Positions 46,650-64,000 of a DNA stretch of 64,000 bases are shown here, in pieces; the first letter of the stretch is position 1, and each line of letters begins with the position of its first letter. Source of the DNA: Candidatus Cryptobacteroides onthequi (lineage in GTDB: Bacteria; Bacteroidota; Bacteroidia; Bacteroidales; UBA932); the NCBI GenBank assembly GCA_018066125.1, contig JAGHSA010000051.1, forward strand, positions 31,497 through 95,496. Reading direction: 5' to 3'. Under the pieces are notes generated by a model. That model did not search any database. It was not told where the DNA came from and saw only the letters and a program-made list of their open reading frames with translations. The translations under genes and the position numbers were made by a program.

Positions 46650-49646
46650 TCAGAGACCGAGAATCTCGGCCGCGTATCTCGCATAGTGTCCCTGAAGCGA
46701 ATATGCGTACCTCATGAGGGTTTCCTCGCCGAGGCCGTTCTTGTCGCCGCACATGTAGAGCGCACGGGCTACATGGAGCTCCTTGAGCGCCTTGTTCCTG
46801 AATGTCACGTCTATGGTATTCGGAACGTTCATGTCGCGCGCCTCTGTATAATTGCTGACAGCATGATATCTCATGCCAGGCATGGTGAGCATGGCGTACA
46901 ATGTGTCGGCGGCCTTGGTGCTGCCGATGTTCTCCGTTGCCATGGCAATGGCGCGGAAGTGTGAGAAATAATCCTCCGGGAAGAGCATCCTTGCCTTGTC
47001 GAGGACGACGTCCAGTGAAGCTTCATCTCCAGACCTTCCGAGGGCGATGATGAGAGAGTCGAGACGGCTCATGCACATGCCGAACTGGTGCATGCCCTTG
47101 TAGTGCCATCCTTCATCCCATTCCCTGGTCTGGGCGATCTTGTCACGGAGCACCGGTGCATACTGTGAGTCGCCGAGGATACAGAGAACGCTTGCGTAAT
47201 TGACCTTTGCTTCACCTTCAGCAGACTTGATCTGCTCTCTTACAAGCTTCTTGCAGAGTTCGGTGTCGGTAAGGAGGACGCCAAGTCCGTCATAGTTGTT
47301 GGCCACGCTCTTTGCCGCAGCCTTCATCTCTTTGAGACTGAATCCCTTGAACTCCTTGTCCGAAAGTACACGTTCAGGAAGATTGCCTATCTCCACGAGA
47401 TGTTTCTGAACCTTCTTCATGTCCACTTTCCTGACAGACACACCTTCCTTCACCGCCATCGAGCAGAGGTATCCGACAGCGTATCCCTGGTTCTGGAGAC
47501 ATGGCTGCATGCGGATGACCGGCATGGCATCGCGGTGGGCGCTGGCTCCGAGGCCAGTGGTGAGAATGCCGTCAAGGCCCTTAGGAAGAAGTGCGCGGAG
47601 AGGCACGTCTGCGTCGTAGATGGTATGCCTTGCCATAGGCGGGCTGAGGATGAAGTACGGATCCACGATCATGCCGTGAGTATCGAACGAACTCTTGTGA
47701 TATGAGATGGTATCAGGATATCTGCGGTGATTGAGGACGTCATAGACTGAGATGACATACTCTCCGACGACACGTCTGCGCTCGCGGGTCTGCGGCATCT
47801 TGACCATGTCGTAGCTGTTTCTGAACTTCTCCTTGGACTGAACGAAGACACGTGAGACATCGAGGATGTCTGTATCGTCGATGAAGAGCCAGTCATTGTT
47901 GGCATAGTAGTCACCCGGATCCTTCTTGCCCATGCCGGCACCCTGGACTGCGAGTGTCTTCTTGCCGGTGTAGTCGTATTCGGCGCCGGCCGCAATGGCG
48001 ATGTCAGCGCTTCCGGTGGAGTCTATGAGGACCTTGGACAGGATGACGCCGCGGCCTTCAGGAGTCGCCACGACGAGTCCCTTGACCTTGTTGTCTTCCA
48101 CAAGGGCGCCGCAGCCCAGCACACCGTACCAGAGCTCTCCGCCCGCCTTGAGGAACTCGCTCCTGTACCATTCCTGCTTCCAGTCGCCTATGTTGTGGCC
48201 GTCCTTGGATGGCTGGCGCGGATGGTCTGCCGGAGCTATTTCTCTCGCAGCCTTGTCGATGACGCTTGTGAATCCGCCACGGTAACCGTCCCAGTAGACT
48301 CCGATGAGGCCGAGCGTCGAAAGACCGCCCAGTCCGTGAAGATACTCGAGCATGAGTGTCTTCGACCCGTGACGTGCTGCAGAAAGTCCGGCAGGTGCGC
48401 CTGCCGTACCACCGCCGAGGACGATCACATCATAGCTGCCGAGTACAGGAAGGGCACCCTTTCCGCACTCGACGTACTCCTGATCCTTGTAGGTACGGAG
48501 AGGCACGAGGAATTCTCCGATGCGGCCGAAGTCATTGGCATTGGCCTGAGACTGCTTCACAGTCACAGCCTTTGCGGCCTTCTGAGCCTTCACCTGATCG
48601 GAGATGGACTCGCCGAGCATCTCGCCGAGGGTCATGGCCTGCACCGGCCTCATGAGCGCTTCGGCATCCTTGCGGGACATGTCGGCGCATGGTCCGAGGA
48701 CATAGAGGTTTTTCAACCCGGCAGGCTTCATCGCTCCGACAGGGATACCGCGGATCGAGCGTGAACCTCCGGCATACGGAGTCTCTGACTTGATGCTCTG
48801 CTGCGGGATGTACCACAGAAGGTCGGAGCTGTCCACCTGATCCGGATCCCACACGAGTGTGCGTGCCTTCTGCTCTGCCGCCATGATTTCGGCGTATGTT
48901 CCAGCCTTGATCTCATGAGCGACAGTATATCTTGTCACAGGGTAGGTCTTGCCATTGAATTCGAATGGCATAGGGAAGGCCTCAGATCTCACGATGCCTT
49001 CTTTTGATACAGCCTTGTTGCCGACTACTGTGAACTGGAATTCGCAGATTCCAGGAACGAACGATGTGAATCCGGCGCCTGCCATCCTTGCGACCGAAGC
49101 TTCATGTGTGGCATCGATGACCACCTTGGAGCGCACGGCCTGGCGGCCGGAACGGTTCACGATGACAACGCCGGCCACATTGCCGGATGCGTCTGTGAGG
49201 ACGTTTGTCACATAGCTGCTGTAGAGGAATGCGACACCGCTGTCGATAAGGGTATCCTCTAGCGTCTTTTTCACTTTCATCGGGGTCGGATATCCCTTTT
49301 CAGGAAAAATCTTTTCGGCAAGCGCTGTCTCCATCCTGTCTTCCTTGTCCGTGTCGAAAAGGAATGATCCGCAGATGTCATCTCCAAGGTAAGGGAGACC
49401 GGCTGCGAGGAAGACCTTAAGTCCACTCTTTGCAGCTGCTGCTGCGGCTGCCACGGCACGGGAGCTTCCTCCGACGATGACCATATCCACATCAGCGAAT
49501 ACTGGAATCTTCCTGCCCTTTTCAAGGGCGAAATTCTCATCTGGAACGACGGCTTCTATGTTTGCCTTCGCATTGGCCACATTGCCAAGGGCAAAGAGGG
49601 CGCCGCTGGCAGCTGAGACCTTTAGAAATTCTCTTCTGGTAAGCAT
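46650..49646 (-). CDS. Tat-exported double FAD-oxidoreductase with helical C-terminal domain (copy 1)
   Basis: Product of 998 residues. The start MLTRREFLKVSAAS has a twin-Arg motif and hydrophobic stretch, so it was chosen over a longer frame running 79 codons upstream. The first FAD-like half (about 50-380) has a degenerate nucleotide loop, VIVGGSSRAVAAAA, in place of GxGxxG. The second half (about 404-780) is classical, VIVLGGGTAGAPAG with the GGLSTLG region, PF12831-like (FAD_oxidored). The last ~200 residues are helical, HEAT-like. The substrate is unknown. It lies 19 bases after the stop of its paralogue (49666-52659) and is the last gene of the PUL. Confidence 0.85.
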   Translation of the reverse strand: MLTRREFLKVSAASGALFALGNVANAKANIEAVVPDENFALEKGRKIPVFADVDMVIVGGSSRAVAAAAAAAKSGLKVFLAAGLPYLGDDICGSFLFDTDKEDRMETALAEKIFPEKGYPTPMKVKKTLEDTLIDSGVAFLYSSYVTNVLTDASGNVAGVVIVNRSGRQAVRSKVVIDATHEASVARMAGAGFTSFVPGICEFQFTVVGNKAVSKEGIVRSEAFPMPFEFNGKTYPVTRYTVAHEIKAGTYAEIMAAEQKARTLVWDPDQVDSSDLLWYIPQQSIKSETPYAGGSRSIRGIPVGAMKPAGLKNLYVLGPCADMSRKDAEALMRPVQAMTLGEMLGESISDQVKAQKAAKAVTVKQSQANANDFGRIGEFLVPLRTYKDQEYVECGKGALPVLGSYDVIVLGGGTAGAPAGLSAARHGSKTLMLEYLHGLGGLSTLGLIGVYWDGYRGGFTSVIDKAAREIAPADHPRQPSKDGHNIGDWKQEWYRSEFLKAGGELWYGVLGCGALVEDNKVKGLVVATPEGRGVILSKVLIDSTGSADIAIAAGAEYDYTGKKTLAVQGAGMGKKDPGDYYANNDWLFIDDTDILDVSRVFVQSKEKFRNSYDMVKMPQTRERRRVVGEYVISVYDVLNHRRYPDTISYHKSSFDTHGMIVDPYFILSPPMARHTIYDADVPLRALLPKGLDGILTTGLGASAHRDAMPVIRMQPCLQNQGYAVGYLCSMAVKEGVSVRKVDMKKVQKHLVEIGNLPERVLSDKEFKGFSLKEMKAAAKSVANNYDGLGVLLTDTELCKKLVREQIKSAEGEAKVNYASVLCILGDSQYAPVLRDKIAQTREWDEGWHYKGMHQFGMCMSRLDSLIIALGRSGDEASLDVVLDKARMLFPEDYFSHFRAIAMATENIGSTKAADTLYAMLTMPGMRYHAVSNYTEARDMNVPNTIDVTFRNKALKELHVARALYMCGDKNGLGEETLMRYAYSLQGHYARYAAEILGL

Positions 49647-49665
49647 TATCTGTCGTTTAATCTGT

Positions 49666-52659
49666 TTATGATTTCTTTCCCAAACTTTCCCACGCGAAGC
49701 GTGCGTAGTGTGCTTCCTGTCCGGAAGCATAGTTCTCCAGGATGCGTGCTCCAAGGCCGTCCATGTCCCCGCAGAGGTAGAGTGCACGGGCAAGGAATAT
49801 CTCTTTGAGCGCCTTGTTTCTGAGAGAGTCCTCAAGGATGTACACGCCGTCATTGATATTGAGAGCGACCTTCCGGGTGGCATCCTTCTGATCGGAGATA
49901 TGATGTCCGGTCATGCCTTCCATACTCAGGAGTGAGTGGAGAACCGGTGCTGCCGATGAGGAGCCGATCTGCTCCAGGGCCTCGGACACGGCCCTGAAAT
50001 GTGAGAACTCACTCTCCGGCCTGAGTTTCGATGCCAGCCTGAGTATCTCCGGAACGGATTCGGCGCACCTGCATTTTCCGAGAGCCATCACATAATTGTC
50101 AAGACGGCTCACACTGAAGCCGAACTGATGCATGCCTCTGTAATTCCAGCCCTTGTCCCAGCCTTCAGCAGACTTCACCGCATCAAGCACACACCCGGCT
50201 CCTTCCTTGCAGCCCAGCATGGCAAGGACATTGGCATAGCATATCCTGTTCTCAGGGGCAGCCTTCTTCAGGGCCTTTCTGAGCGCCGGAATGGATTTCT
50301 CCGTATCGGCAAGGATGACTTCAAGCCCGGCATATCCTTCAGGAAGCGATGCGATAGCCTTCTCCAGTCCCTGCACAGTAACGATCTGCATGTCCGACTC
50401 ATCGAGGACCTCCTGTGGAAGTGTACCTTTCTCCACCAGACGCTTCTGGATGGCTTTGACATCGACATCCCTGATGTCATAGAGCATGGCCTTGGCAGCC
50501 TCTGAAGCTATGAGACCGGCAGCATATCCCTGATTCTGGAGATCAGGCTGCATGCGGACCACCGGCATGGCATCGCGGTGGGCGCCGCTGCCGAGTCCTG
50601 TCACCATCACACCGCACATGCCCTTCGGAAGGAGGGAGCGCAGAGGCATCTTGACCTCATAGTGGGTACGGCCGCGGTCCGGTGGATTGACTGTGAAGAA
50701 TACGTCTTCAGTATAGCCGTGTGTGTCGAAGTTGCTTATGTGGAATGAGACAGTGTCACTATAGGTTCTCTGGCTCATCATGTCATAGACGGACACATTG
50801 TAGTCTGCGATGATACGGCGTCTCTCGCGGGTCTGCGGGAGCTTTCCTATGTCATAGTACCCCTGGTTCTTGACCCTGCACTGGATGAAGAGGCGGGTGA
50901 CATCTGTGATGTCCGTGTCGTCGATGAATGTCCAGTCGTTGTTGTTGTAGTGATCGAGCGGGGTGAATTTCGGAAGGCCGGCACCCTGGATAGCGAGGCT
51001 GTGCTTTCCTGTATATTCATATCCGGCACCCGCCGCAATGGCGACGTCTGCACTTCCCGTCGAGTCTATCACACAGCGGGCGCGCACGATGCCGCAGCCG
51101 AACGGTGTGCAGACAAGCACGCCTTCAACCCTGTTGCCACGTACGAGAGTGCCGCAGACAGTAGAGTGGAACCATATGTTTCCGCCAGCCTTGAGGATCT
51201 CGCTGCGGAACCACTCGGCCTTCCAGTCAGGGGCCCACTCGGAAGCATCCGGCTTCACATGGCGTTTGTGGCCGGACGGTGCGATTTCGAGCATGGCCTT
51301 GTCTATCTCGGCGGTAAAACCCTTGCGGTAGCCCGCCGTATATCTTCCGATGAAGCCATAGGTGCCGACTCCTCCGAAACCATGGAGATATTCGAGCACG
51401 AGCACACGGCTTCCATTGCGGGCTGCACTGATGGTCGCAGGGGCGCCCGCTGTACCGCCTCCGACGACAAGCACGTCATAATTTCCCAGAACAGGAATGC
51501 TGCCGCCGGAGAATCCGGCGATAGCGAATGGGGTGACAGGGCGTGCGTTCCCGACCGTCCTGACACTGCAGGATCTGTCACCATCCATTGAAGATGAAAC
51601 GATACTGAGCTCTGAGGCCGGTTTCATCTCATGAGCCCTGGCAGCGGCTGCCGCGCCGATCCTGTCACCGGTGGCCATCATCACTGCCGGTTCCATCATC
51701 TCCTCGACCTTGTCGCGCGGAATGGATGCCGAAGGGCCCAGGACATAGAGGTTTGCCATATCATCAGGCTGCCATGCATCTCTGCTGTCCATGTATGATG
51801 ACGGCACATAGAACGGAACATCGCTGCTGTCGCACTGTTCGATGTCCCACGTAAGGCTGCGGATGGCCTGCTCGGCTTTCATGAGAGAGTCATATGACTC
51901 ATCCTCCAGCGGCAGGTCAATGCTGTACCGGATGGCTCTGTAGCTCTTGTTGTTTGTATTGAAGGCTGGAAAGAGCTGCTCCGCCTTTACTATCTCTGAT
52001 GCTTCCTTCAGCTCGTTTCCGACAACTGTATGGAGGAAGCGGTGTGTGCCGGCCACGAATGGATGGAAAGGAACTCCCGCCATTCTGGCCACCGTGGCAT
52101 GAGGGGTGGCATCGATGATGACTTTCGCCCTGACGGCCTGTATGCCCGAGCGGTTTGCCATGCAGATGCCGGAGAGAACGCCGTTGCCGTCCTTTATGAC
52201 GCCGGCGACCTGGGTGCTGTAGAGGAAGTCGATGCCGTTGTCAAGCATCTCCTGCTCGAGTACACTCTTGACATGCAGAGGAAGTGGAGCTATGGTGCTC
52301 GGGAACAGTTTTGAGAAGAGAGCACATCCGCTCTCATGCACCTTCGGCCAGAACATGAATGAGCCGCATACGTCCTCTCCGGCGTAAGGGAGAGATGAGA
52401 TGACAAAGACTCTGGCACCTTTCCCGGCCGCTGCCGAAGCGGCTGCTATACCTGAGGCGGTGGCACCGACCACAAGGACATCGACATCCTTCCAGACCGG
52501 AAGCTGTCCGGCCTCCTGCCAGATCTGTGAGGGGCTGTCTTCTGCCGATATCAGGACAGGTCCTGACTTGTGTTTCTCAGTAAAAGCAAAAACAGGACGG
52601 AACGTAACCATCGCACTTCCTGCGGCAATGGTCTTCAGGAATGATCTTCTGTCAGTCAT
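49666..52659 (-). CDS. Tat-exported double FAD-oxidoreductase with helical C-terminal domain (copy 2)
   Basis: Product of 997 residues, a paralogue of the next gene with the same layout. MTDRRSFLKTIAAG is the twin-Arg signal. The first FAD half has VVGATASGIAAASAAA (middle Gly missing) and the LPYAGEDVCGSFMFW block that both copies share. The second half has VLVVGGGTAGAPAT and LEYLHGFGGVG. The helical C-terminus shares RNKALKEI and ARALYLCGDMDGLG with copy 1. A strong terminator (52673-52714) lies between SusD and this gene, so its expression relative to SusC/SusD may be reduced. The substrate is unknown; oxidation or epimerisation of a sugar or polyol is possible. Confidence 0.85.
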   Translation of the reverse strand: MTDRRSFLKTIAAGSAMVTFRPVFAFTEKHKSGPVLISAEDSPSQIWQEAGQLPVWKDVDVLVVGATASGIAAASAAAGKGARVFVISSLPYAGEDVCGSFMFWPKVHESGCALFSKLFPSTIAPLPLHVKSVLEQEMLDNGIDFLYSTQVAGVIKDGNGVLSGICMANRSGIQAVRAKVIIDATPHATVARMAGVPFHPFVAGTHRFLHTVVGNELKEASEIVKAEQLFPAFNTNNKSYRAIRYSIDLPLEDESYDSLMKAEQAIRSLTWDIEQCDSSDVPFYVPSSYMDSRDAWQPDDMANLYVLGPSASIPRDKVEEMMEPAVMMATGDRIGAAAAARAHEMKPASELSIVSSSMDGDRSCSVRTVGNARPVTPFAIAGFSGGSIPVLGNYDVLVVGGGTAGAPATISAARNGSRVLVLEYLHGFGGVGTYGFIGRYTAGYRKGFTAEIDKAMLEIAPSGHKRHVKPDASEWAPDWKAEWFRSEILKAGGNIWFHSTVCGTLVRGNRVEGVLVCTPFGCGIVRARCVIDSTGSADVAIAAGAGYEYTGKHSLAIQGAGLPKFTPLDHYNNNDWTFIDDTDITDVTRLFIQCRVKNQGYYDIGKLPQTRERRRIIADYNVSVYDMMSQRTYSDTVSFHISNFDTHGYTEDVFFTVNPPDRGRTHYEVKMPLRSLLPKGMCGVMVTGLGSGAHRDAMPVVRMQPDLQNQGYAAGLIASEAAKAMLYDIRDVDVKAIQKRLVEKGTLPQEVLDESDMQIVTVQGLEKAIASLPEGYAGLEVILADTEKSIPALRKALKKAAPENRICYANVLAMLGCKEGAGCVLDAVKSAEGWDKGWNYRGMHQFGFSVSRLDNYVMALGKCRCAESVPEILRLASKLRPESEFSHFRAVSEALEQIGSSSAAPVLHSLLSMEGMTGHHISDQKDATRKVALNINDGVYILEDSLRNKALKEIFLARALYLCGDMDGLGARILENYASGQEAHYARFAWESLGKKS

Positions 52660-52672
52660 CTTTATCTAAAAT

Positions 52673-52714
52673 AAAAAAAAGCACAGGAAAGGCCGACATG
52701 TGCCTTTCCTGCGC
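52673..52714 (-). terminator. Intrinsic terminator inside the PUL, after susD
   Basis: CAGGAAAGGC (52684-52693) pairs perfectly with GCCTTTCCTG (52702-52711), extended by GC/GC. On the minus strand eight T residues follow (52680-52673). It sits between the SusD stop and the start of the double FAD gene. Confidence 0.9.
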
Positions 52715-52725
52715 GATTCATGATA

Positions 52726-54567
52726 TTAATATCCAGGGTTCTGCGTGATATTGTCGTTGATGAGCATATCGGCAGCCGGGATAGGCCAGAGGTAGTTCTT
52801 CTTAGAGTCGAAACTCATCTTGAAGAATACTGTGATGTACTTGTCAACTGCATATGCGAGATCTGGAAGACCGTCCTCGTCAATCTTTGGAACACCACCG
52901 AGAGGGTAGCATCCGTTATCCCAGTTGTCAAGGAGAGCCTCGAAATCAGCTGCGAGAGTGATGTTGGACTCTGAACCTCTCTTGCCGTTCCAGTTTGCAG
53001 CACCTGAATAGGTACGTGGAAGGTAGTACATAGCGGTGTTGTGAGTCTTCTCAGCGATCTTCCAGCGAAGGAGGTCTCTGTAGCGCATACCCTCGAATGG
53101 GAATTCCATACGGCGCTCCATGCGGATGATCTTGCGGAGCTGAGCCTGGGTCTTACCTGCGACAGTCACTGTAGGGCACTCGATACCTGTTCCGTTGTAA
53201 GCACGTGCGCGAACGAGGTTGAGAGTCTTGTCGACATCTGCCTGAGTGAGCTGTCCGAGCTCGTTCTTGGCTTCAACATAGTTCATGAGAATCTCTGCAT
53301 AGCGGAGATATGGGAATACGTTGTCTGAAGCAAGACCGTTTGAATTGAAGTCGAGCCAGCAGTCCTTCACATACTTCCTCATCGGGAGACCGGTGTAGAC
53401 TGAGTGAAGCTGTGTTCCCTTGGTATCGTTGGTTGTACGCATCTTCTTTGTAGCAGAGTCATAAACCTGTGTAACGTATGGGTTGCAGGTGAACTCGACT
53501 CCGAGGTAGAGATAGTCAGGATACTTCTCAGCGAATGTACCGTCAAGCTTTGATGCGTTGTACTCCTCCCAGTCTGCAGAATATGGAGTCTTGAAAGGCT
53601 GGATGGTGTACTTCATACGAGGGTCACGGTTGTTGAATGGATCCCTGTAGTCGTAGAGAGGTGACTCGTCGATAGGGAGACCGTCAGTACAGAGGTATGA
53701 GCAGTAAAGCTGATAAGAAGGACCGCGGTTTGTGTGCGCACCGAAGGTACGGAGGCAGAAGTTGCGGACGCAAGAGAACGGACCTACGCCGTAAGGGACG
53801 CTGAGATCACCTCTGAACCAGAAGATGAGCTCGTCTGAGTAATCTGCCTGGAAGAGCTTGAGGTAGTTGTCATGAAGCTTGTAGACACCGAGTTCCATAC
53901 ACTTCTGAGATGCGTCTGCAGCGATTGCCCAGTCGCTCTGCTGCATGGCGAAGCGGCTCTTGAAACCGAGAGCGGCACCCTTTGAAAGACGTGACTGACC
54001 TGAATACTTTGCAGGGAGCATTGAAGCTGCCTTGTCGAAGCACTCATATGCGAATGCCATAACCTCAGCCTTAGGAGAACGTGCGAGATTGTATGCATCC
54101 TCGAGCTGCATAGGCTCCTTGGCAAGGATGACATCACCCCAGTAAGTAACGAGCTCACCGTAGCAGAATCCGAGGAAGCAGTAAGCCTCACCGAGATACT
54201 GGTTCTTCTTTGCATCGGAAATGCCTGGAGCAGATCCGTTTTCAAGATCGGTGATGAGCTTGAGGGAGCGGCTGATACCCTTGTAGAGGGCTGACCAGCG
54301 GTTCTTTGAATATGAAGACTCTGAAGTCATGGTACCCTGGGTAACCTCATCCGGTTTGTCACGATAGAGCATATCGTCATCCCAGTAGAACTCATCGATA
54401 GGGAAGAAGTCTGGACGATACCAGTCATTAATGGTCATCTCGATCTCAGTCTCATTGGTATTCCAGTTTCCTGAAGCAAGATCTGAGAGCGGCTTGATAT
54501 CAAGGTCGCAGGATACGAAAGCAGCTGCGGCGATTGTACCGAGAATATATTTTGCAATATGTTTCAT
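52726..54567 (-). CDS. SusD/RagB-family glycan-binding lipoprotein
   Basis: Surface glycan-binding partner of a SusC transporter, 613 residues. The lipoprotein signal ends at Cys20 (AAFVSCDLD). TPR-type helices (ISRSLKLITDLENGS, YLGEAYCFLGFCYGELVTYWG) and the later SusD blocks (PYLRYAEILMNYVEAKNELG, IIRMERRMEFPFEGMRYRDLLRW) are clear. It follows SusC by 12 bases. Specificity cannot be read from sequence; GH92 next door suggests mannose-containing glycans. Confidence 0.95.
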   Translation of the reverse strand: MKHIAKYILGTIAAAAFVSCDLDIKPLSDLASGNWNTNETEIEMTINDWYRPDFFPIDEFYWDDDMLYRDKPDEVTQGTMTSESSYSKNRWSALYKGISRSLKLITDLENGSAPGISDAKKNQYLGEAYCFLGFCYGELVTYWGDVILAKEPMQLEDAYNLARSPKAEVMAFAYECFDKAASMLPAKYSGQSRLSKGAALGFKSRFAMQQSDWAIAADASQKCMELGVYKLHDNYLKLFQADYSDELIFWFRGDLSVPYGVGPFSCVRNFCLRTFGAHTNRGPSYQLYCSYLCTDGLPIDESPLYDYRDPFNNRDPRMKYTIQPFKTPYSADWEEYNASKLDGTFAEKYPDYLYLGVEFTCNPYVTQVYDSATKKMRTTNDTKGTQLHSVYTGLPMRKYVKDCWLDFNSNGLASDNVFPYLRYAEILMNYVEAKNELGQLTQADVDKTLNLVRARAYNGTGIECPTVTVAGKTQAQLRKIIRMERRMEFPFEGMRYRDLLRWKIAEKTHNTAMYYLPRTYSGAANWNGKRGSESNITLAADFEALLDNWDNGCYPLGGVPKIDEDGLPDLAYAVDKYITVFFKMSFDSKKNYLWPIPAADMLINDNITQNPGY

Positions 54568-54579
54568 GATCTTAGAGAA

Positions 54580-57500
54580 TTAGAAGTTGATGTTAAGACC
54601 AAAGATGTAAGAAGACATGATGAGGTCACCTGAACGGTTCCACTCTGGGTCATATCCCTTTGGATACTTCGAGAATGCAGGAAGGTCATTGCAAGAAACA
54701 TAGAATCTGAGAGAGTTGATCTTGATCTTCTGGGTCAGGTTCTGAGGGATGGTATATCCGAGAGTGATATCCTTCACGCGCATGTAAGCGCCGTTGAAGA
54801 GATAGAAATCACTTGCACCGTAGACATTGGCTGTGTTGGTGGTGAATGCAGGATACTTAGCCTTTGCATTCTGCTCATCTGTTGCGAATGGGCTCCAGTG
54901 GCTGTCATAAGCAACCTTAGGGCAAGCATAAGCCTGGAGGTTGAAAGGCTGTACAGGCCATGACCAGTATGAACGCTGGTGGCCGATACCCTGGAGTGAG
55001 AGGTTGAAGTCGAAGCCCTTCCAGTTTGCGAAGAATGAAGCGCCATACTGGTACTCAGGGAGTGAGTTTCCGAGCTTCACCTTATCTGCATCGTTGATCA
55101 CGTTGTCATCGTTCTGGTTGACATACTTGATGCATCCAGGCTTGTCATTGCCGTTGACGGTAGCGATCTTGCTGCCGTCTGCGTTCTTCATACCTGCCTC
55201 ATTGAGAATGATGCCGTCACTCTCCCACATGTACCACTCCTGATAGTAAGAACCCTCCTCGATGAGCTTGTTGCCAGAGATGTTGCGTCTGTCTGACATG
55301 TAACCCATCTTTGAACGGTAATCAGAGAGGTTGAAGCTAGCGCCGTATGCAAAGTCGCCGATCTGGTCGTTCCAAGCGATCTCAAACTCCCAACCTGTGG
55401 TGTGCATGTCAGCCACATTGTACTTAGGTGCGTTGTAACCGAAGTAGAGAGGGAATCCGATGTACTCGAGCATGTCTGTGGTCTTCTTGTAGTAGACGTC
55501 ACCAGAGAAACGGAGTCTGCTGTCAAGAGCTGAGAGATCGAGACCGAGGTCGTATGATGTGGTGGTCTCCCATGTGATGTCATTGAAAGCGTAGTCCATC
55601 TGATAGCCGGTCTGTGCGAGCTCGACTGAACCTGCTGTTGTAGGGAGGTAAGCTGTACCGAGGCTGAGGGTAGCCATGTAAGGGAAGTAGTTTCCACTGA
55701 TCTGCTCGTTACCGAGCTGACCTGCAGAAGCGCGGAGCTTGAGGGTGTTGATGCCATTGACATTGAACCAAGGCTCCTCAGAGATCACCCAACCTGCAGA
55801 TACAGATGGGAATGTTCCCCAGCGGTAACCGTTTGCGAAACGAGAAGAAGCATCAGCACGGACGTTTGCCTGGAGGAGGTACTTGTTGGCGTAAGAGTAC
55901 ATGATACGGCCGAATACAGAGTTGTATGCCTGATGGTTTCCGACACCTGTATTGTACTGATAATCCTCAGGACCTACGCTGAGATAAGGATATGCATCAA
56001 GAGAGTAGTTGGTTCTCTTTGCAGAAACGTTTGCATACTCATAGTAGTAGCCCTCATAACCTGCCATTGCATTAAATGAATGCTTCTTGGCATCGAGCTT
56101 ATAGTTGGCGTAGAACTGTGTGGTAAGGCTGCGGCTGGAGTTTCTGAGCTCCTGAACCTGAGTAGAGCCATACTGTGTGGCAGGCTTATAGTCGCCACCT
56201 GAGTCACGGAGTTTGAAACCTACACTGTGATCCTTCTCCTCGAAGAACATGAGTGATGGAGCGACAGCTGCAGAGACTGTGAGACCCTTGAGGAGGGTGA
56301 AGTCGAGCTGGAGCTTGGAAGCAAGGTTGTAGGTATCGTCAAGCTTCTTGCCTGCGAGATCCATGGCTGCGATAGAGTTGTCACCAGACTTTCCGTATGC
56401 GTACTCACCATCTGCATACCAGATAGGGTAGATAGGTGCACGGAACATGAGAGACTGAAGGATAGAACCCTCCTGGAAATGAGGAGCAGTCTTTGAACCG
56501 TAGGTGATGTTCACGTCAGCAGATGCGTGGATCCACTCGTTGACATTGTAGTCGTTGTTTGAACGGATGTTGAAACGCTTGTAGTTCTGCTTTGGTGAAA
56601 GACCGTCAGCGTCATAGTAGTTTACTGAGAAGTTGGTCTTCAGCTTGCTGGTACCTCCTGAGAGGTTGAATGAATGACGCTTGTGTGTAGCTGACTTTGC
56701 GAGACCTGCGCTCATCCAGTCTGAATCCGGATAGAGATCTGGATCCTTGATATGGTTCTGTGCATAGTTCTCGATGTAGTCCTTTGCATACTGAGAGTAC
56801 TGGCTGGTAGCACCGCCATTGTAAGACACCTCATTGAGACCCTGCATCCAGTCGATAGAACCGATGAATTCAGGACGTGCAGTAGGAGTGTCGACACCAT
56901 ACTCGAAACCGTAGCTGAGTCTGAGCTCGTTGATCTTTGCACGCTTGGTGGTGATGAGGATGACACCGGCAGCAGCGCGGGCACCATAGATGGATGCAGA
57001 AGCTGCGTCCTTGAGAACCTGAATGTCCTTGATGTTGTCAGAAGCTACATCATTGATGCTTCCCGGGATACCGTCGATGATGACGAGTGGGGCAGTGCTG
57101 GCTGTACTTGTGATACCGCGGACGATGATGGATGCGCTTGAGCTTGGGTCACCTGAAGAACGTGTAACCTGTACGCCGGCCATTGAGCCCTGGAGCTGGT
57201 TGGCAAGGAGAGGCTTGTTCTTGCTGGAGATGCGCTCTCCACCGAGAGATGAGGTAGCACCTGTGAGGTCTGACTTCTTGGCGGTACCGTAACCGATGAC
57301 GATGACATCGTCGAGGAGATTGACATCTTCCTCAAGGACAATGTTGAGAACAGATCCATCAGCAGGGACAACGACGTCCTTTGTGATGAATCCAACAGAA
57401 GAAACCTGCAGGGTCTGGCCTGGAGCTACAGCGATGGAGAAAAGACCATCGAAATCTGTAACTGTACCTTTGTCCTTATCCTGAAGGACAATGACACCTG

Positions 57501-57639
57501 CACCAATAACAGGATCTCCTGCAGCATCGACAACCTTACCGTTGACGGTCTTCACCTGGGCAAAGGCGATGCTGGAAGAACCAATGAGAAGAAGGAATGA
57601 AAGAACCATTCCAACTCTTTTCCACATGTTAGTTTTCAT
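54580..57639 (-). CDS. SusC/RagA-family TonB-linked outer-membrane transporter
   Basis: Imports oligosaccharides together with SusD, 1019 residues from MKTNMWKRVGM (an ATG four codons upstream is possible). A signal peptide ends near IAFA-QVK. A carboxypeptidase-regulatory-like domain follows (VNGKVVDAAGDPVIGAGV). The TonB plug domain starts with DDVIVIGYGTAKKSDLTGA and has GSMAGVQVTRSSGDPSS and VLKDAASASIYGARAAAGVI. The rest is the 22-strand barrel, ending in IFGLNINF. It lies 46 bases after GH92, so it belongs to the same operon. Confidence 0.96.
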   Translation of the reverse strand: MKTNMWKRVGMVLSFLLLIGSSSIAFAQVKTVNGKVVDAAGDPVIGAGVIVLQDKDKGTVTDFDGLFSIAVAPGQTLQVSSVGFITKDVVVPADGSVLNIVLEEDVNLLDDVIVIGYGTAKKSDLTGATSSLGGERISSKNKPLLANQLQGSMAGVQVTRSSGDPSSSASIIVRGITSTASTAPLVIIDGIPGSINDVASDNIKDIQVLKDAASASIYGARAAAGVILITTKRAKINELRLSYGFEYGVDTPTARPEFIGSIDWMQGLNEVSYNGGATSQYSQYAKDYIENYAQNHIKDPDLYPDSDWMSAGLAKSATHKRHSFNLSGGTSKLKTNFSVNYYDADGLSPKQNYKRFNIRSNNDYNVNEWIHASADVNITYGSKTAPHFQEGSILQSLMFRAPIYPIWYADGEYAYGKSGDNSIAAMDLAGKKLDDTYNLASKLQLDFTLLKGLTVSAAVAPSLMFFEEKDHSVGFKLRDSGGDYKPATQYGSTQVQELRNSSRSLTTQFYANYKLDAKKHSFNAMAGYEGYYYEYANVSAKRTNYSLDAYPYLSVGPEDYQYNTGVGNHQAYNSVFGRIMYSYANKYLLQANVRADASSRFANGYRWGTFPSVSAGWVISEEPWFNVNGINTLKLRASAGQLGNEQISGNYFPYMATLSLGTAYLPTTAGSVELAQTGYQMDYAFNDITWETTTSYDLGLDLSALDSRLRFSGDVYYKKTTDMLEYIGFPLYFGYNAPKYNVADMHTTGWEFEIAWNDQIGDFAYGASFNLSDYRSKMGYMSDRRNISGNKLIEEGSYYQEWYMWESDGIILNEAGMKNADGSKIATVNGNDKPGCIKYVNQNDDNVINDADKVKLGNSLPEYQYGASFFANWKGFDFNLSLQGIGHQRSYWSWPVQPFNLQAYACPKVAYDSHWSPFATDEQNAKAKYPAFTTNTANVYGASDFYLFNGAYMRVKDITLGYTIPQNLTQKIKINSLRFYVSCNDLPAFSKYPKGYDPEWNRSGDLIMSSYIFGLNINF

Positions 57640-57685
57640 AAACATAGGCATTGATTAATTGTTATTAAATAGTGTGAGTGTAGTG

Positions 57686-59884
57686 TTATCTTATAACCGG
57701 CTCTGAAGTCATCTCGAACTCGAGTACGCCGCCCGCAATGATGTCCTGATGGGAAATCATGCAGGATGCGAGAGGCTTGCCGTTGAGAGTGACCGACTTG
57801 ACATATCGGTTTGCCTCCGACAGATTCTGAGCCTTGGAGGTGAAGGTCTTGCCGCCTGGGAGATGAAGTGTCATCTCAGGAATCTGAGGAGCTCCGATGA
57901 CATAGTTCATGCTGACAGGATCGACAGGATAGAAGCCCATGGCAGAGAAGAGATACCATGCAGACATCTGTCCGCAGTCATCATTGCCGCAGAGTCCGTC
58001 AGGCTCGGGGCTGTAGAACTTGTCGAAGACTTCGCGTACGAGAGCTTCTGTCTTCCATGGCTTGCCGGCAAGCTCATAGAAATATACCACATGATGGCTT
58101 GGCTCATTTCCATGTGCATACTGGCCGATGAGACCTGTCACATCCGATACGAATCCTGTGCTCTCGCTGGTAGTTTCAAGGAAGAACAGAGAGTCGAGTT
58201 TTGATGCGAATGCCTCAGGGCCACCCATGAGTGAGATGAGATCTTCCGGAGCCTGCTGCACGTGCCATGTGTACTGCCATGCATTGCCTTCAGTATAGTC
58301 TCCGCCGGATGTGGAAGCATGAGAGAGAACGAACTGGTCGAACGGCTCCTTCCAGTCTCCCTTGCTGTCCTTCGGCCTCATGAGATTTGTCGAATGGTCG
58401 AAGAGATTCTTGTAATTCTGAGATCTCTTGGAGAAGAACTCATAGTCATCCTCTCTTCCGAGAGCCTTGGCCATGACGGCTGCACAATAGTCATCATAGC
58501 AGCTTTCCAGTGTCCTTGAGACTGACTCGACTGTGATTATGTCATATGGATAATATCCATATCTGTCATAGGTGACCCAGTCGGACTTCGGGTGGTTTTC
58601 AGTGAGGGATTTCTTGATGGCGTCGAATGCCTTTTCAGGATCGAAACCCGTGAAGCCCTTCATGAATGCCTCTACAATGACAGGTACCGAATGATTGGCG
58701 ATCATGCAGTGATTCTCTTTTCCCCAGAGAGTCCATATCGGAAGGTATCCCTGAGCACCGGCATGGCTGACCATGCTCTGTACGAAGCCGTCCACCATCT
58801 CAGGATTGAGAATGGTATAGAAAGGATGAGCTGCCCTGTACGTATCCCAAAGCGAGAATGTTGAGAAATATGCACCATTCGATGACTTGTACACGTTGTT
58901 GTCCGCACCTCTGTATGAGCCGTCATGATCTGCGATGTTGTTCGGCTGGATATAGAGATGGTAGAGAGAGGTATAGACATTCTTCTTCTGCTCGATGCTG
59001 CCCTTGACTTCCACTCTTGAGAGAAGACTGTTCCATCTCTCGTGGGCAGACCTGCATGTTGCATCGAAATCCCAGTCCGGATTTTCCTTCGCAAGGGAAG
59101 CGAGTGCTCCGTCGATGCTGACAGACGACATGGATATCTTCACCTGCACAGGCTTTTTTCCTTCGCCGAAATTCAAGACGATCTTGTCGGCATTCTCTCC
59201 CTCCTGACGGGCAAGGGTATCGCATGAGATGACAGGTTCTGAAAGACTGATCGCGAAGAACCAGTCTCTGTTCACCCAGTTCTTTGTGTTCTGATGTCCG
59301 ATGATCGTCTGAGCATCCACGATTTTCACGTCGGAAAAGAGAACATGGGTGTGCAGGGCTGCATTGGTGAATACGAGGCCGCTCTGGAAGTCGATCGAGA
59401 GCTTTCTGTCAGTTCCGGCAGGATACTCGAACAGATACTGACTGGTATGATCTGTTGCAGTGACATCGACTTTGACGCCGTTGTCCAGGTTCACGCCGTA
59501 ATATCCCGGAGATACTCTCTGAGCTGTCTTGTCATATCCCACCTCGGAAACTACCTGATCGCCGATGAAGGGGAGGATGAGGATGTCTCCGAGATCTGGG
59601 CAGCCGGTACCGTTTAGATGATTCTGTGCAAAGCCTATGAGGGCATCATCGTCGATGCTGTATCCGGAGCAGTATTTCCAGATGTCGCGTCCGGTCTCGG
59701 GACTGGCCTGGATCATGCCGAAAGGAACACATGCACCGGGGAATGTATGTCCGTTATAGGCTGTGCCAACAAGGGCGTCAACATACGAGCATACATCTTC
59801 TGCGGGAGAAGATGTATTGCATGAAGATATCAGGGCAGCCGCCGACACAATGGCTGAAACAGCCTTGATTGCGTAATTTCTCAT
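57686..59884 (-). CDS. GH92 alpha-mannosidase lipoprotein
   Basis: Exo-acting alpha-mannosidase family, Ca-dependent, 732 residues. The lipoprotein signal ends at Cys22 (LISSCNTSS). Family blocks are VGTAYNGHTFPGACVPFGM (about 39-57), NHLNGTGCPDLGDI, FSLWDTYRAAHPF and TEGNAWQYTWHVQQAP, which carries the region of the catalytic acid. GNDDCGQMSAWYLFSAMGF holds the base/Asp region. Linkage (1,2, 1,3, 1,4 or phosphodiester) cannot be judged by eye. It starts 2 bases after the FAD-oxidoreductase stop and precedes SusC. Confidence 0.94.
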   Translation of the reverse strand: MRNYAIKAVSAIVSAAALISSCNTSSPAEDVCSYVDALVGTAYNGHTFPGACVPFGMIQASPETGRDIWKYCSGYSIDDDALIGFAQNHLNGTGCPDLGDILILPFIGDQVVSEVGYDKTAQRVSPGYYGVNLDNGVKVDVTATDHTSQYLFEYPAGTDRKLSIDFQSGLVFTNAALHTHVLFSDVKIVDAQTIIGHQNTKNWVNRDWFFAISLSEPVISCDTLARQEGENADKIVLNFGEGKKPVQVKISMSSVSIDGALASLAKENPDWDFDATCRSAHERWNSLLSRVEVKGSIEQKKNVYTSLYHLYIQPNNIADHDGSYRGADNNVYKSSNGAYFSTFSLWDTYRAAHPFYTILNPEMVDGFVQSMVSHAGAQGYLPIWTLWGKENHCMIANHSVPVIVEAFMKGFTGFDPEKAFDAIKKSLTENHPKSDWVTYDRYGYYPYDIITVESVSRTLESCYDDYCAAVMAKALGREDDYEFFSKRSQNYKNLFDHSTNLMRPKDSKGDWKEPFDQFVLSHASTSGGDYTEGNAWQYTWHVQQAPEDLISLMGGPEAFASKLDSLFFLETTSESTGFVSDVTGLIGQYAHGNEPSHHVVYFYELAGKPWKTEALVREVFDKFYSPEPDGLCGNDDCGQMSAWYLFSAMGFYPVDPVSMNYVIGAPQIPEMTLHLPGGKTFTSKAQNLSEANRYVKSVTLNGKPLASCMISHQDIIAGGVLEFEMTSEPVIR

Positions 59885-59886
59885 GA

Positions 59887-61812
59887 TTATTTCTCGATTG
59901 TGTTGAGAATGAATCTGAGAGCGTCCCTCCTGGTCTTGCAGCTTTCAGGAACAGCGACACCGGAGCGCATCTGCCAGTCAGATTTCTCTGCCTTTGTGAG
60001 GACTGAGTCGAGATCTGCTGTCCAGCCTGTGAGGTATCCGCGCAGACCCATCTTCTGGACGAGGCTGAAATCCGGTGATGACGGTGCGACATCCTTGAAA
60101 TAGATCAGTGACGCCTTCGCATCGATAAGTTTGTCCTGAACGGCTGTGCAATCGATTTCCTGGACGCTCACACCTTTCTCGACAACCTGGGATGCAGCTA
60201 CGCCGGCAGCTTCTCCGAGTGCCATCCAGCAAGGTTCCATGCGCATGGTGGAGAATCCCACATGGCTTCCGGAAACAGGAACAGGGAAGAGCAGGTTTGA
60301 AACTTCCTTAGGTACGATGACTCCGATAGGAAGTGTATAAGGCACACTTGAATGGCTGAAGAATCCGTCGAGATGCACCCTGCCGCTTTCTCTCTTGAGG
60401 ACTGCGTGAGAATCGAGTGCGTAGTGGCTCGATGCGATGCTGTTGCTGTGGACAGGAGGACGCTGTCCCGGAAGAACAGGGATGGCATCATTTGCGGTGA
60501 AGAAATACTGTCCTTCGAAACGTCGTCCCTCACGGACATACACCTGTCTCGGGAAATTGTCATTGTCGGCATACTCGGTAGTAGAGAATCCCCAGGTCTG
60601 GCATTCCTTGCGGAAAGATGCAGGAAGCTCCTTGTCATTCTGGGCGAACCAGAGAAGGCCGAGTGTGTATTCCTTGAGTCTCTGGGCAAATTTGTCTCTC
60701 CACTCCCACGATGCTGTAGGCCATGCCCAGTTCTCCTCCGGAAGGTCTGTAGAGAGGAAGGCCATATGCTGGTTGTTCGCATCTGTCTTGCCATTAGGGA
60801 GAACCACCATATTGGTGACCTTGCCTATGCCCCAGCGGTCTCCAGGGATCTGAGTCTTTCCACCGGCCTTGAGCACTTCACGGTTTCTCTCCATGTCCTC
60901 AGCGGTGACATCATTCATCTCCACACCTGTATGACGGCCGGTCCATACGTCCTCCACGATGGAAGCATACTCATTTCTGTCATAGTTGGCAGGCTTCTCG
61001 ACAGGACGCATGTGGTTCTTGTCCTGAGTGAGACAGAGACGGTAGTTGTACGCCTGTACGGCATTGTCTGCCTGATATGTGGTACCTTCACCGTCATAGC
61101 CGGTGAATCCGTTGTATTCAGAAAGCTTGCAGAGTCCGGACTGTGCGCCCCACTGACGGTAAACCTTTCCGGCACAGACCTCGCCGAATTCATCGCGCCC
61201 TTCACGCCCGAGTCTGTATGGAACTCCGGCAGCCGCACCGAGGTCGCCCTCATAGGTAGCATCGATAAACACCTTACCGGTGTATATCTCGACGTTGCCT
61301 GTTGTCCTGTCGGTTATCTTTACTGAGGTTATCTTCTGACCGCACTTCGTGATATTCGAAGGGTTGGAATCAAACTGCCTGTTGTAGAGGACAGTCACCT
61401 TGTCTCCCATTTCAGCGATCATTCCGAGGAATGTCTGCTCGGCTACAGAAGGTTCAAAGTGATAGCCGTCGCTGCAGTCTTTCATCTGCTGCGAGTCCGC
61501 ACCGTAGGTTTTCACATAATGCTCCCTGTTGCGGTTGACGAACTCGAGGAAGAGTCCGGCAGTGACGCCGCGTGTGCCGATATCCGTGGCGCCGAGTCCG
61601 TTTGCCGGGAGGCCTCCGATATGTGAGGTTCTTTCCAGAATCACGGCACGATGGCCTTCGCGCGCTGAGGAGATCGCCGTCATGATGCCACCGGGAGTGC
61701 CACCGACGATTACCACGTCATAGTCTGATTCACGAACATTTTGAGCAGAGATCACCGCTGCGTCTGAGATGGCGGCAATCGTAAGAGCGATAGACAGGAT
61801 GAATCGTTTCAT
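59887..61812 (-). CDS. FAD-dependent oxidoreductase, first gene of the PUL operon
   Basis: Product of 641 residues. The N-terminus MKRFILSIALTIAAISDAA is a Sec-like signal, unlike the twin-Arg signals of the two larger paralogues. The FAD site is DVVIVGGTPGGIMTA (about 32-46), with ERTSHIGGLPANGLGATD and the GKVFIDATYEGDLGAAAGV block of PF12831 (FAD_oxidored). Proteins of this family are sometimes misannotated as xanthan lyase. It has a single FAD domain and no HEAT-like tail. The substrate is unknown. It is transcribed from the promoter at 61987-62017. Confidence 0.85.
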   Translation of the reverse strand: MKRFILSIALTIAAISDAAVISAQNVRESDYDVVIVGGTPGGIMTAISSAREGHRAVILERTSHIGGLPANGLGATDIGTRGVTAGLFLEFVNRNREHYVKTYGADSQQMKDCSDGYHFEPSVAEQTFLGMIAEMGDKVTVLYNRQFDSNPSNITKCGQKITSVKITDRTTGNVEIYTGKVFIDATYEGDLGAAAGVPYRLGREGRDEFGEVCAGKVYRQWGAQSGLCKLSEYNGFTGYDGEGTTYQADNAVQAYNYRLCLTQDKNHMRPVEKPANYDRNEYASIVEDVWTGRHTGVEMNDVTAEDMERNREVLKAGGKTQIPGDRWGIGKVTNMVVLPNGKTDANNQHMAFLSTDLPEENWAWPTASWEWRDKFAQRLKEYTLGLLWFAQNDKELPASFRKECQTWGFSTTEYADNDNFPRQVYVREGRRFEGQYFFTANDAIPVLPGQRPPVHSNSIASSHYALDSHAVLKRESGRVHLDGFFSHSSVPYTLPIGVIVPKEVSNLLFPVPVSGSHVGFSTMRMEPCWMALGEAAGVAASQVVEKGVSVQEIDCTAVQDKLIDAKASLIYFKDVAPSSPDFSLVQKMGLRGYLTGWTADLDSVLTKAEKSDWQMRSGVAVPESCKTRRDALRFILNTIEK

Positions 61813-62075: not shown

Positions 62076-63383
62076 ATGCGAACCTTTTTTACCTGTGTAT
62101 TTTTCCTGGCATCGGCCCTCATTTCCGATGCCCAGACCGTGAGACAGGACGTGAGGCTGAGGGTCAGCCATCCTGACGGTTTATATGAGAAAGGTGATAC
62201 CGTGAGGGTCTGGGCCGACGTCTCCGCTGTGCCCGTCGACAGCCTGTTTCTCAACGTGTACAGGTACTGCACATGGGAGCCCGTAACGACAACCGCGCTC
62301 AGCCTCAAGGTCGGAGAGAACCTTCTGTTTGAAAAGGCATTCAACGAAAGCGCGCAATATGTATTCGAAGTCACAGACGGTTCCGATCCCAGAGAATTCA
62401 AGAAAGGGGGAGACGGAAATTCCTTCCTGGGAGTCGTCATCTCCCCTCAGGATTTCCTGCCGGGATTCGGAATGCCCGCAGATTTCGACAGATTCTGGAA
62501 CCGTGAGATAAGGAAGATGAGGCGCCACCGGATGAAGCCCTCGCTCACAAATCTCTCCGAAGGAGGTGAATATACGACATACCATGTCGAGATCGGCTGC
62601 TCCGGTCCTGCACCGGTCAGGGCATATGTGGCATATCCCGCAGGTGCACAGAAGGGGAGCCTTCCCATCATCATCAATTTCCATGCAGCCGGCAATCCCG
62701 GTTCGGCATCGAAGGCTTCTGCTGCCGTCAAGGCCGCAAGAAACATCCCGGGTGGCGCCCTCGCCATGGATATCAACGCCCATGGCATGGCAGATGACCA
62801 GCAGCCACATTATTATGACAGCCTCGCTGCCGGTCCTCTGAAAGACTATGCCAAGAGAGAACCCGACGGAAAGCTGGCCGACTATCATTTCAAATGGATG
62901 ATGCTCCGCGCCATACGCGCATTGGATTACATGTGCCGGAACCCTCTGTGGGACGGAAGGCGCGTAATCGTCATGGGAACCAGTCAGGGGGGATATCAGA
63001 GCGCATTCCTGGCTGGAATGGACGAGCGTGTGACAGCAGCGGTCCTCACAGTGCCTGCCGGACTGGACCAGGGAGCGCCCCTGCAGGGACGCCCGGCATC
63101 ATGGCCAGCTACAATGAAGCTTTATCCGGAATCCACCTGCCGCAACATCCCATATATAGACCCGGCCGCCTTCCTCAGGAGGACAAAGGCTGAAATCTGG
63201 TGCGAGATCGGCCTGTATGATTACACCTGTCCTGCTGCCAACCTGTTCGGCACCCTGAATACCGTGAATTCCCCGAAAGTCATAGTGACGTCCCAGCGTC
63301 CGCATTCATCATATTTCACGACTGACAAGGAGCAGGCAAAGAAGAGCCGTGAAGAGTTTTTCAGGCATTTATCAGAAAAGTAA
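62076..63383 (+). CDS. Acetyl-xylan-esterase-like enzyme (CE7/AXE1 family)
   Basis: Product of 435 residues. A signal peptide ends near ISDA-QTV (about residue 19), so it is periplasmic or surface-exposed. An N-terminal beta-rich region (about 20-130) is extra compared with the ~320-residue cytosolic CE7 enzymes. The alpha/beta-hydrolase core has the nucleophile in VMGTSQGGYQSA, the Asp in GLYDYTCP and the His in QRPHSSYF. It probably removes acetyl groups from sugars. The stop overlaps the next ATG by one base (TAATG), so it is coupled to the GH88/GH105-type gene. Confidence 0.88.
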   Translation: MRTFFTCVFFLASALISDAQTVRQDVRLRVSHPDGLYEKGDTVRVWADVSAVPVDSLFLNVYRYCTWEPVTTTALSLKVGENLLFEKAFNESAQYVFEVTDGSDPREFKKGGDGNSFLGVVISPQDFLPGFGMPADFDRFWNREIRKMRRHRMKPSLTNLSEGGEYTTYHVEIGCSGPAPVRAYVAYPAGAQKGSLPIIINFHAAGNPGSASKASAAVKAARNIPGGALAMDINAHGMADDQQPHYYDSLAAGPLKDYAKREPDGKLADYHFKWMMLRAIRALDYMCRNPLWDGRRVIVMGTSQGGYQSAFLAGMDERVTAAVLTVPAGLDQGAPLQGRPASWPATMKLYPESTCRNIPYIDPAAFLRRTKAEIWCEIGLYDYTCPAANLFGTLNTVNSPKVIVTSQRPHSSYFTTDKEQAKKSREEFFRHLSEK

Positions 63384-64000
63384 TGACAAGACATATCAAG
63401 ACCATCCACTCGATACTGGTGCTTGCTCTTGCAGGCATCACAACTGCGGCGCAGTCGCCGCTCACAGGATTCGCAGGCAAGACCGACCCGGTCACAGTGG
63501 GAAACATCATCGCAGAGGCATTCGTACGCGCCGATGCGGAACAGAAAGACCACATCTATTATTCCACATCGAGCCTCTGGACAAACTGTCTGGAATTTGC
63601 CCACAACACATCCAACAGCGATCTTGAGAAGGCTCTGACAGACAAGATGATTCCATACTACAAGGAGAAAAGCAATTTCCTGCCTCACAGGTATCATGTG
63701 GACTATACAATCTTCGGGGCAGTGCCTCTCGAGATCTATATCCTCAGCAGGGACAAGAAAGCCCTCCGCCTCGGCCTCTCATACGCTGACAACCAGTGGG
63801 CCATGCCTGACACGACCGACTCAGAGACCATGAAACTCAATCCAAAGGTCAGTCCGGCACAGCAGATGGAATACTGGAAGCTCGGCTATTCTCCTCAGAC
63901 CAGGCTGTGGATAGACGACATGTATATGATCTCACTCCTTCAGCTGCAGGCGTACAAGGCGACAGGGGAGAAGAAGTATCTGGACAGGGCGGCATACGAG
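63383..64000 (+). CDS. GH88/GH105-type unsaturated glycuronyl hydrolase (partial, cut by window end)
   Basis: The first 206 codons are visible without a stop. A signal peptide ends near TTA-AQSP. The (alpha/alpha)6 features include WIDDMYMISLLQLQAYKATG near the end of the visible part, whose Asp matches the catalytic Asp of the family (WxDD). Family knowledge: such enzymes release unsaturated uronic acids from products of pectin or other polyuronate lyases. The remaining ~150-250 residues lie outside the window. Confidence 0.8.
   Translation, partial: MTRHIKTIHSILVLALAGITTAAQSPLTGFAGKTDPVTVGNIIAEAFVRADAEQKDHIYYSTSSLWTNCLEFAHNTSNSDLEKALTDKMIPYYKEKSNFLPHRYHVDYTIFGAVPLEIYILSRDKKALRLGLSYADNQWAMPDTTDSETMKLNPKVSPAQQMEYWKLGYSPQTRLWIDDMYMISLLQLQAYKATGEKKYLDRAAYE

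Follow-up and report, generated by a model that had tools for sequence, protein, structure and literature searches.

A 64,000-nucleotide stretch of DNA, analysed here as a whole and referred to as the window, carries at positions 46650-61812 of its minus strand an operon that combines a SusC/SusD importer with three flavoproteins of the PF12831 (FAD_oxidored) family. The operon is a real, recurring type and is undescribed in the open-licence literature that we searched. With about even confidence, based on the gene set and its homologies, we propose that it is a SusCD import operon whose exported PF12831 flavoproteins oxidise the imported saccharide in the periplasm. PUL substrates are usually predicted from glycoside hydrolases and lyases, and a CAZyme-based prediction would miss a recurring SusCD operon in which exported-type flavoproteins are the common enzymes. 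The fact that relatives keep importer and flavoprotein without the mannosidase suggests an undescribed redox route for a sugar-like nutrient, and would point to periplasmic oxidative sugar chemistry in anaerobic gut and sediment Bacteroidota.

Gene content of the operon

Six close-set genes make up the operon, in the order FAD641, GH92, SusC, SusD, DFAD2 and DFAD1, with intergenic gaps of 2 to 66 bp (19 bp between DFAD2 and DFAD1). The gene set described in the initial annotation is present in full and backed by Pfam matches, except that its open reading frame 46650-49883 proved too long: DFAD1 starts at 49646 and not at 49883, with a Tat-type start (MLTRREFLK) that yields a protein of 998 aa. 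The first gene, FAD641 (59887..61812, minus strand like the other five), encodes a single PF12831 flavoprotein with an N-terminus that, by eye, is of the Sec type. It is followed by a full-length GH92 protein of the alpha-mannosidase family (57686..59884), with a lipoprotein-like N-terminus, an N-terminal domain scoring 174.3 bits and a catalytic domain scoring 584.6 bits, by a SusC-like TonB-dependent transporter with Plug and CarbopepD_reg_2 domains in Pfam (54580..57651), and by a SusD-like lipoprotein (52726..54567; SusD_RagB, 145.9 bits). The susC and susD genes are adjacent, as in a SusCD-type PUL. The last two genes encode the long, Tat-type paralogues DFAD2 (49666..52659, 997 aa) and DFAD1 (46650..49646), which are 46% identical.

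Divergently from the operon, an AXE1-type esterase gene and a GH88-like gene of which only the beginning is present (62076..64000, plus strand) extend to the contig end, and their membership in the same locus is unproven. As the window ends where the contig ends, the sequence upstream of the operon breaks off after these two genes; the assembly comprises 2.96 Mb and is 85% complete. Base composition was also inspected for a foreign origin, which we do not propose, the GC content of the operon genes (0.497-0.563, compared with 0.534 for the window) giving no clear signal.

Architecture and export signals of the flavoproteins

All three flavoproteins match PF12831 above its curated cut-off of 27 bits, FAD641 across the whole profile (292.8 bits) and the two long paralogues in several stretches (211.7 and 209 bits). 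What sets the DFAD proteins apart from this family is that the fold occurs twice in tandem, its first copy being degenerate, and that a tail follows. Profiles of the N- and C-half align with each other (hhalign probability 99.0, E 3.6e-18, 147 columns), and the halves also align, along most of their length, with two single-domain PF12831 proteins encoded in the same genome at L021 and L022 (285 columns at probability 99.5 and 321 columns at 99.4), from which we conclude that a DFAD is a tandem duplication. The L021 and L022 proteins likewise start with a twin-arginine motif. In searches against solved structures, the matches mainly covered the dinucleotide-binding region (best 60 of 94 and best 60 of 111), and the GMC family was not among the Pfam matches of the three flavoproteins at E up to 0.01.

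The FAD-binding signature consists of a GxGxxG motif and an acidic residue. The C-half of DFAD1 contains a canonical P-loop, GGGTAG (residues 411-416; 48399..48416, minus strand), and G411, G413 and G416, together with an E or D at position 434, are found in 77 of 77 aligned homologues. In the N-half, the corresponding P-loop is degenerate (GGSSRA, residues 59-64; 49455..49472, minus strand): its central glycine is replaced by Ser or Thr in all 77 homologues, its third position is Ala in 49, Gly in 27 and Ser in 1, and position 82, that of the ribose-binding acid, is non-acidic in every one of the 77. The motifs point to one canonical FAD site per DFAD chain as the likely arrangement. Accordingly, the earlier label "double-FAD" is apt for the two FAD-like halves and misleading for the cofactor, as the motif counts rule out two canonical FADs per protein; a second site of an unusual kind is possible. 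Cys92 is kept in 76 of the 77 aligned homologues. The C-terminal tail, about 260 residues long in DFAD1, had been described as helical; the tail itself is present, and the only HEAT matches are sub-threshold and lie in DFAD2 (HEAT_2, 23.3 bits with a cut-off of 27.7; HEAT_PBS, 18.5 bits with a cut-off of 20.9).

Rather than oxidising an imported compound, the flavoproteins could be periplasmic reductases that use it as an electron acceptor, similar to anaerobic respiration of the fumarate-reductase type. Flavocytochrome c3 is among the matches listed for the N-half profile (best E 6.6e-08), and PF00890 hits DFAD2 with 37.2 bits and DFAD1 with 21.1 bits at a cut-off of 20.4, but these matches represent the dinucleotide-binding region, and PF12831 scores far higher, at 209-212 bits. 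We also looked for the CxxCH motif, which is absent from all 376 same-strand ORFs in the clusters (minimum length 120 aa) and from the six window proteins; the five instances among the 784 ORFs of all loci lie outside the clusters. These counts argue against a haem-bearing domain or partner within the cluster, as would be expected of flavocytochrome-type reductases, and we consider a reductase function improbable.

The two long paralogues begin with MLTRREFLK and MTDRRSFLK. For DFAD1, the NCBIfam Tat model TIGR01409 passes its cut-off (19.4 vs 16.7 bits), and the Pfam TAT_signal model stays below (18.8 vs 22.7 bits). Two consecutive arginines occur within the first 14 residues in 64 of 77 DFAD homologues, and the host genome encodes TatC (198.1 bits). 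The twin-arginine signals noted at the outset are thus borne out, and DFAD1 and DFAD2 appear to be exported by Tat. The DFAD copies of L068 and L074, in records labelled Clostridiaceae and Eubacteriales, have no signal sequence, so export is not essential and the chemistry need not be periplasmic.

Neighbourhoods and distribution of relatives

A contig scan yielded 174 related stretches, of which the best 80 are the loci considered here (flanks of 17,219 bp in the median and 4,507 bp at the shortest; ORFs of 120 aa or more). They come from Bacteroidota, Planctomycetota and a few records labelled Clostridia; a contig labelled Diapherotrites that carries SusCD is probably misbinned. Among the 43 loci having at least 8 kb upstream, SusC and SusD both lie within 8 kb of the DFAD gene in 23, another single PF12831 protein is found in 24, and one or the other in 29. 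Scatter of the orthologues without PUL association, the outcome that would have spoken against the initial reading, was therefore not observed, though SusCD is absent within 8 kb in 20 of the 43 loci. Four of these 20 are from Planctomycetota, and L036 and L037, whose DFAD copies are most closely related to DFAD1, are among the SusCD-free loci too. In a rough, within-loci comparison of near and far regions, SusD genes numbered 29 in the 616 kb that lie up to 5 kb from DFAD, compared with 7 in the 438 kb beyond.

Eleven loci, from Parabacteroides, Proteiniphilum and Massilibacteroides, combine close homologues of SusC, SusD and DFAD1. In these loci, DFAD1 is 58-64% identical to that of the window, SusD is 57-61% identical in ten and 48% identical in L038, and SusC is 55-60% identical, being full or near-full in nine and a fragment in L040 and L070. 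Homologues of FAD641 (56-61% identical) adjoin DFAD1 in nine relative loci. Genes of a FecR cluster are present in 18 of 80 loci and genes of a sigma-factor cluster in 12, one member of each having been identified. The operon thus resembles a SusC/SusD PUL in its SusC, SusD and glycoside hydrolase genes here and in the FecR and sigma-factor genes of its relatives, and differs from one in that the recurring enzymes of the relatives are flavoproteins and not glycoside hydrolases.

Co-occurrence with both SusCD and GH92 had been suggested as a check, and it held for SusCD only. A phmmer search (E 1e-5) of ORFs of at least 120 aa detected GH92 in none of the 80 relative loci, many of which have short flanks and 11 of which have close SusD and DFAD1 homologues, so the mannoside context is local to this genome. 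A system specific for mannan or N-glycans is unsupported elsewhere. In an ordinary mannoside or N-glycan PUL, GH92 would be the main worker and the flavoproteins accessory or bystanders. Consistent with this, GH92 is full length and closest among solved structures to 7ZGM (841.2 bits), which is B035DRAFT_03340, an alpha-1,3-mannosidase that takes part in breaking down plant N-glycans (PMC9522356). The B035DRAFT_03340 gene adjoins a PNGase gene, unlike the GH92 gene of the window, and the terms oxidoreductase and FAD are absent from the main text of that report (PMC9522356). At L022 (contig C60, 7852-14357) of the same genome, another Tat-type PF12831 gene, encoding a 447-aa single-domain protein, also lies beside a GH92 gene and a gene for a GH97-esterase protein; this second GH92 is 30% identical to that of the window. 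Against an ordinary PUL stand the lack of GH92 hits in the 80 relative loci and the joint presence of SusC, SusD and DFAD1 in 11 of them, and we consider it improbable.

Other glycoside hydrolases are found near individual DFAD copies, namely GH2 in L104, a rhamnosidase in L075, melibiase-type enzymes in L050 and L115, and a GH88-like gene adjoining DFAD in L114, reminiscent of the one divergent from the operon. A fucosidase and GH42 are among the tallied flanking ORFs, and sulfatase homologues occur in 6 of 80 loci. Annotation of the flanks covered 76 of 93 cluster representatives (best 25 of 118 families), supplemented by single scans, and 53 of 71 ORFs of the class loci (best 25 of 67 families), so a glycoside hydrolase may have been missed.

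The distribution of the DFAD family is patchy. None of 24 genomes examined from the same genus gave a match at E 1e-30; with the own genome counted, matches came from 10 of the 393 genomes sampled across the order (E 1e-40) and from 2 of the 395 sampled across the phylum (E 1e-80), both counts being lower bounds because two candidates were scored per genome. Within the best 80 of 174 stretches, the closest relative of DFAD1 is L036 (67% identical), and the 77-row tree joins DFAD1 to L036 and L037 (SH-aLRT 100). It places DFAD2 with the second of the tandem copies in L038 (SH-aLRT 100), which indicates that DFAD2 forms a lineage of its own, present also in at least one Parabacteroides, and did not arise as a recent local copy. 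Parabacteroides strains with forms of the operon include P. faecis JCM 18682 (L039), P. massiliensis SN4 (L040), P. acidifaciens 426-9 (L042) and P. distasonis An863 (L059). In L056 the DFAD gene reads as two ORFs, and one match in the scan of the order, on a contig of equal length, contains one in-frame stop.

Candidate chemistry and substrates

Given the co-occurrence of DFAD with SusCD, the simplest account is that the exported flavoproteins act on the SusCD cargo, and it is plausible that they chemically modify a glycan. SusC and SusD would bring a saccharide, or a saccharide-bearing compound, into the periplasm. DFAD1 and DFAD2 would reach the same compartment through Tat, carrying FAD in the C-half, and the FAD-free N-half would serve as a scaffold or substrate clamp. 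Both proteins would then oxidise a carbinol of the imported saccharide; a ring carbinol would be converted to a keto-sugar and the glycosidic bond loosened. FAD641 may act on the same or the next intermediate, and in this genome GH92 would additionally trim alpha-mannose. We infer the keto-sugar step by analogy with FAD-GO, which oxidises the 3-OH of glycosides, after which the bond breaks, and whose flavin is reportedly regenerated with O2. FAD-GO belongs to a different family, GMC, to which the DFAD proteins have no Pfam match, and is used here as a working model. The CxxCH search brought to light no electron acceptor in the clusters, which speaks against the proposed oxidation.

The same-strand cluster of L041, bounded on both sides by other kinds of genes, contains only two regulators, SusC, SusD and DFAD1, making DFAD1 the sole enzyme seen in it; L054 (open upstream) and L057 (open downstream) are alike. 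A GH20 gene lies on the opposite strand of L041, 2.4 kb from DFAD1. Such an arrangement could represent a glycosidase-free PUL, in which the Tat-exported tandem flavoprotein alone would cleave the glycosidic bond via a transient keto-sugar, with the flavin restored. Redox-neutral cleavage of this kind would explain clusters without a recognisable electron acceptor and would be the flavin counterpart of GH4 and GH109, both NAD-using families; we think it quite unlikely, and the glycoside hydrolases near some DFAD copies count against it.

The lack of a glycoside hydrolase in the L041 same-strand cluster also fits an imported ligand other than a glycan, such as a polyol, cyclitol or plant glycoside, that is oxidised by the flavoproteins. 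A TIM-barrel neighbour in L043 resembles the inosose dehydratase IolE (33.3 bits, with a cut-off of 290). However, the epimerase, N-deacetylase and sugar-kinase-type neighbours described below, together with the GH92 of the window, favour sugars, so that we regard a non-glycan ligand as unlikely.

The neighbours of DFAD offer weak hints to the substrate, with sugar-metabolism genes present in a few loci only. A GlcNAc 2-epimerase (that of L100 matching 6F04 with E 4.7e-154), a ROK protein and an MFS transporter are nearby in L060 and L100; the ROK protein has a DNA-binding domain and is perhaps a regulator. The seven Planctomycetota loci contain PIG-L (4), PfkB (4), DUF4432 (4), MtlD-like (4), NagB-like (3) and XylA-like (2) genes. 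The NagB-like assignment is weak (28.9 bits with a cut-off of 236.9; E 0.0086), and the other NCBIfam matches among these neighbours are below cut-off as well. In L106 (317-10277), L084, L108 and L110, DFAD is accompanied by varying subsets of these six gene types, possibly an amino-sugar pathway. The GlcNAc 2-epimerase and PIG-L deacetylase neighbours, and the kinship of GH92 with an N-glycan alpha-1,3-mannosidase, make an N-acetylated amino-sugar glycan our best guess for the substrate, one that we hold loosely. A CstA-family transporter, of which one member was identified by Pfam, occurs in 10 of 80 loci (L043, L081, L085, L089, L090, L092, L093, L094, L096 and L115), too weak a hint to argue for pyruvate release.

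The statement of the initial annotation that it knew of no described system with this gene set agrees with the open-licence literature, consulted mostly as listings, in which we found neither a described system nor a known substrate. Searched by accession or name, PF12831 led only to a Brucella flavoproteome study in this literature, and for FAD oxidoreductases in PULs no described system came up, an FAD-dependent oxidoreductase being named only in passing.

By manual count, the own genome encodes 14 proteins with long PF12831 matches. At L018 (contig C65, 105-8651), four successive genes encode SusC, SusD, a 961-aa protein that matches nothing in Pfam or NCBIfam under the thresholds applied, and a member of PF12831. 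Among the PF12831 neighbourhoods examined in this genome, L018, L020 and L022 have SusCD or glycoside hydrolase genes, L022 providing the second flavoprotein-GH92 pair.
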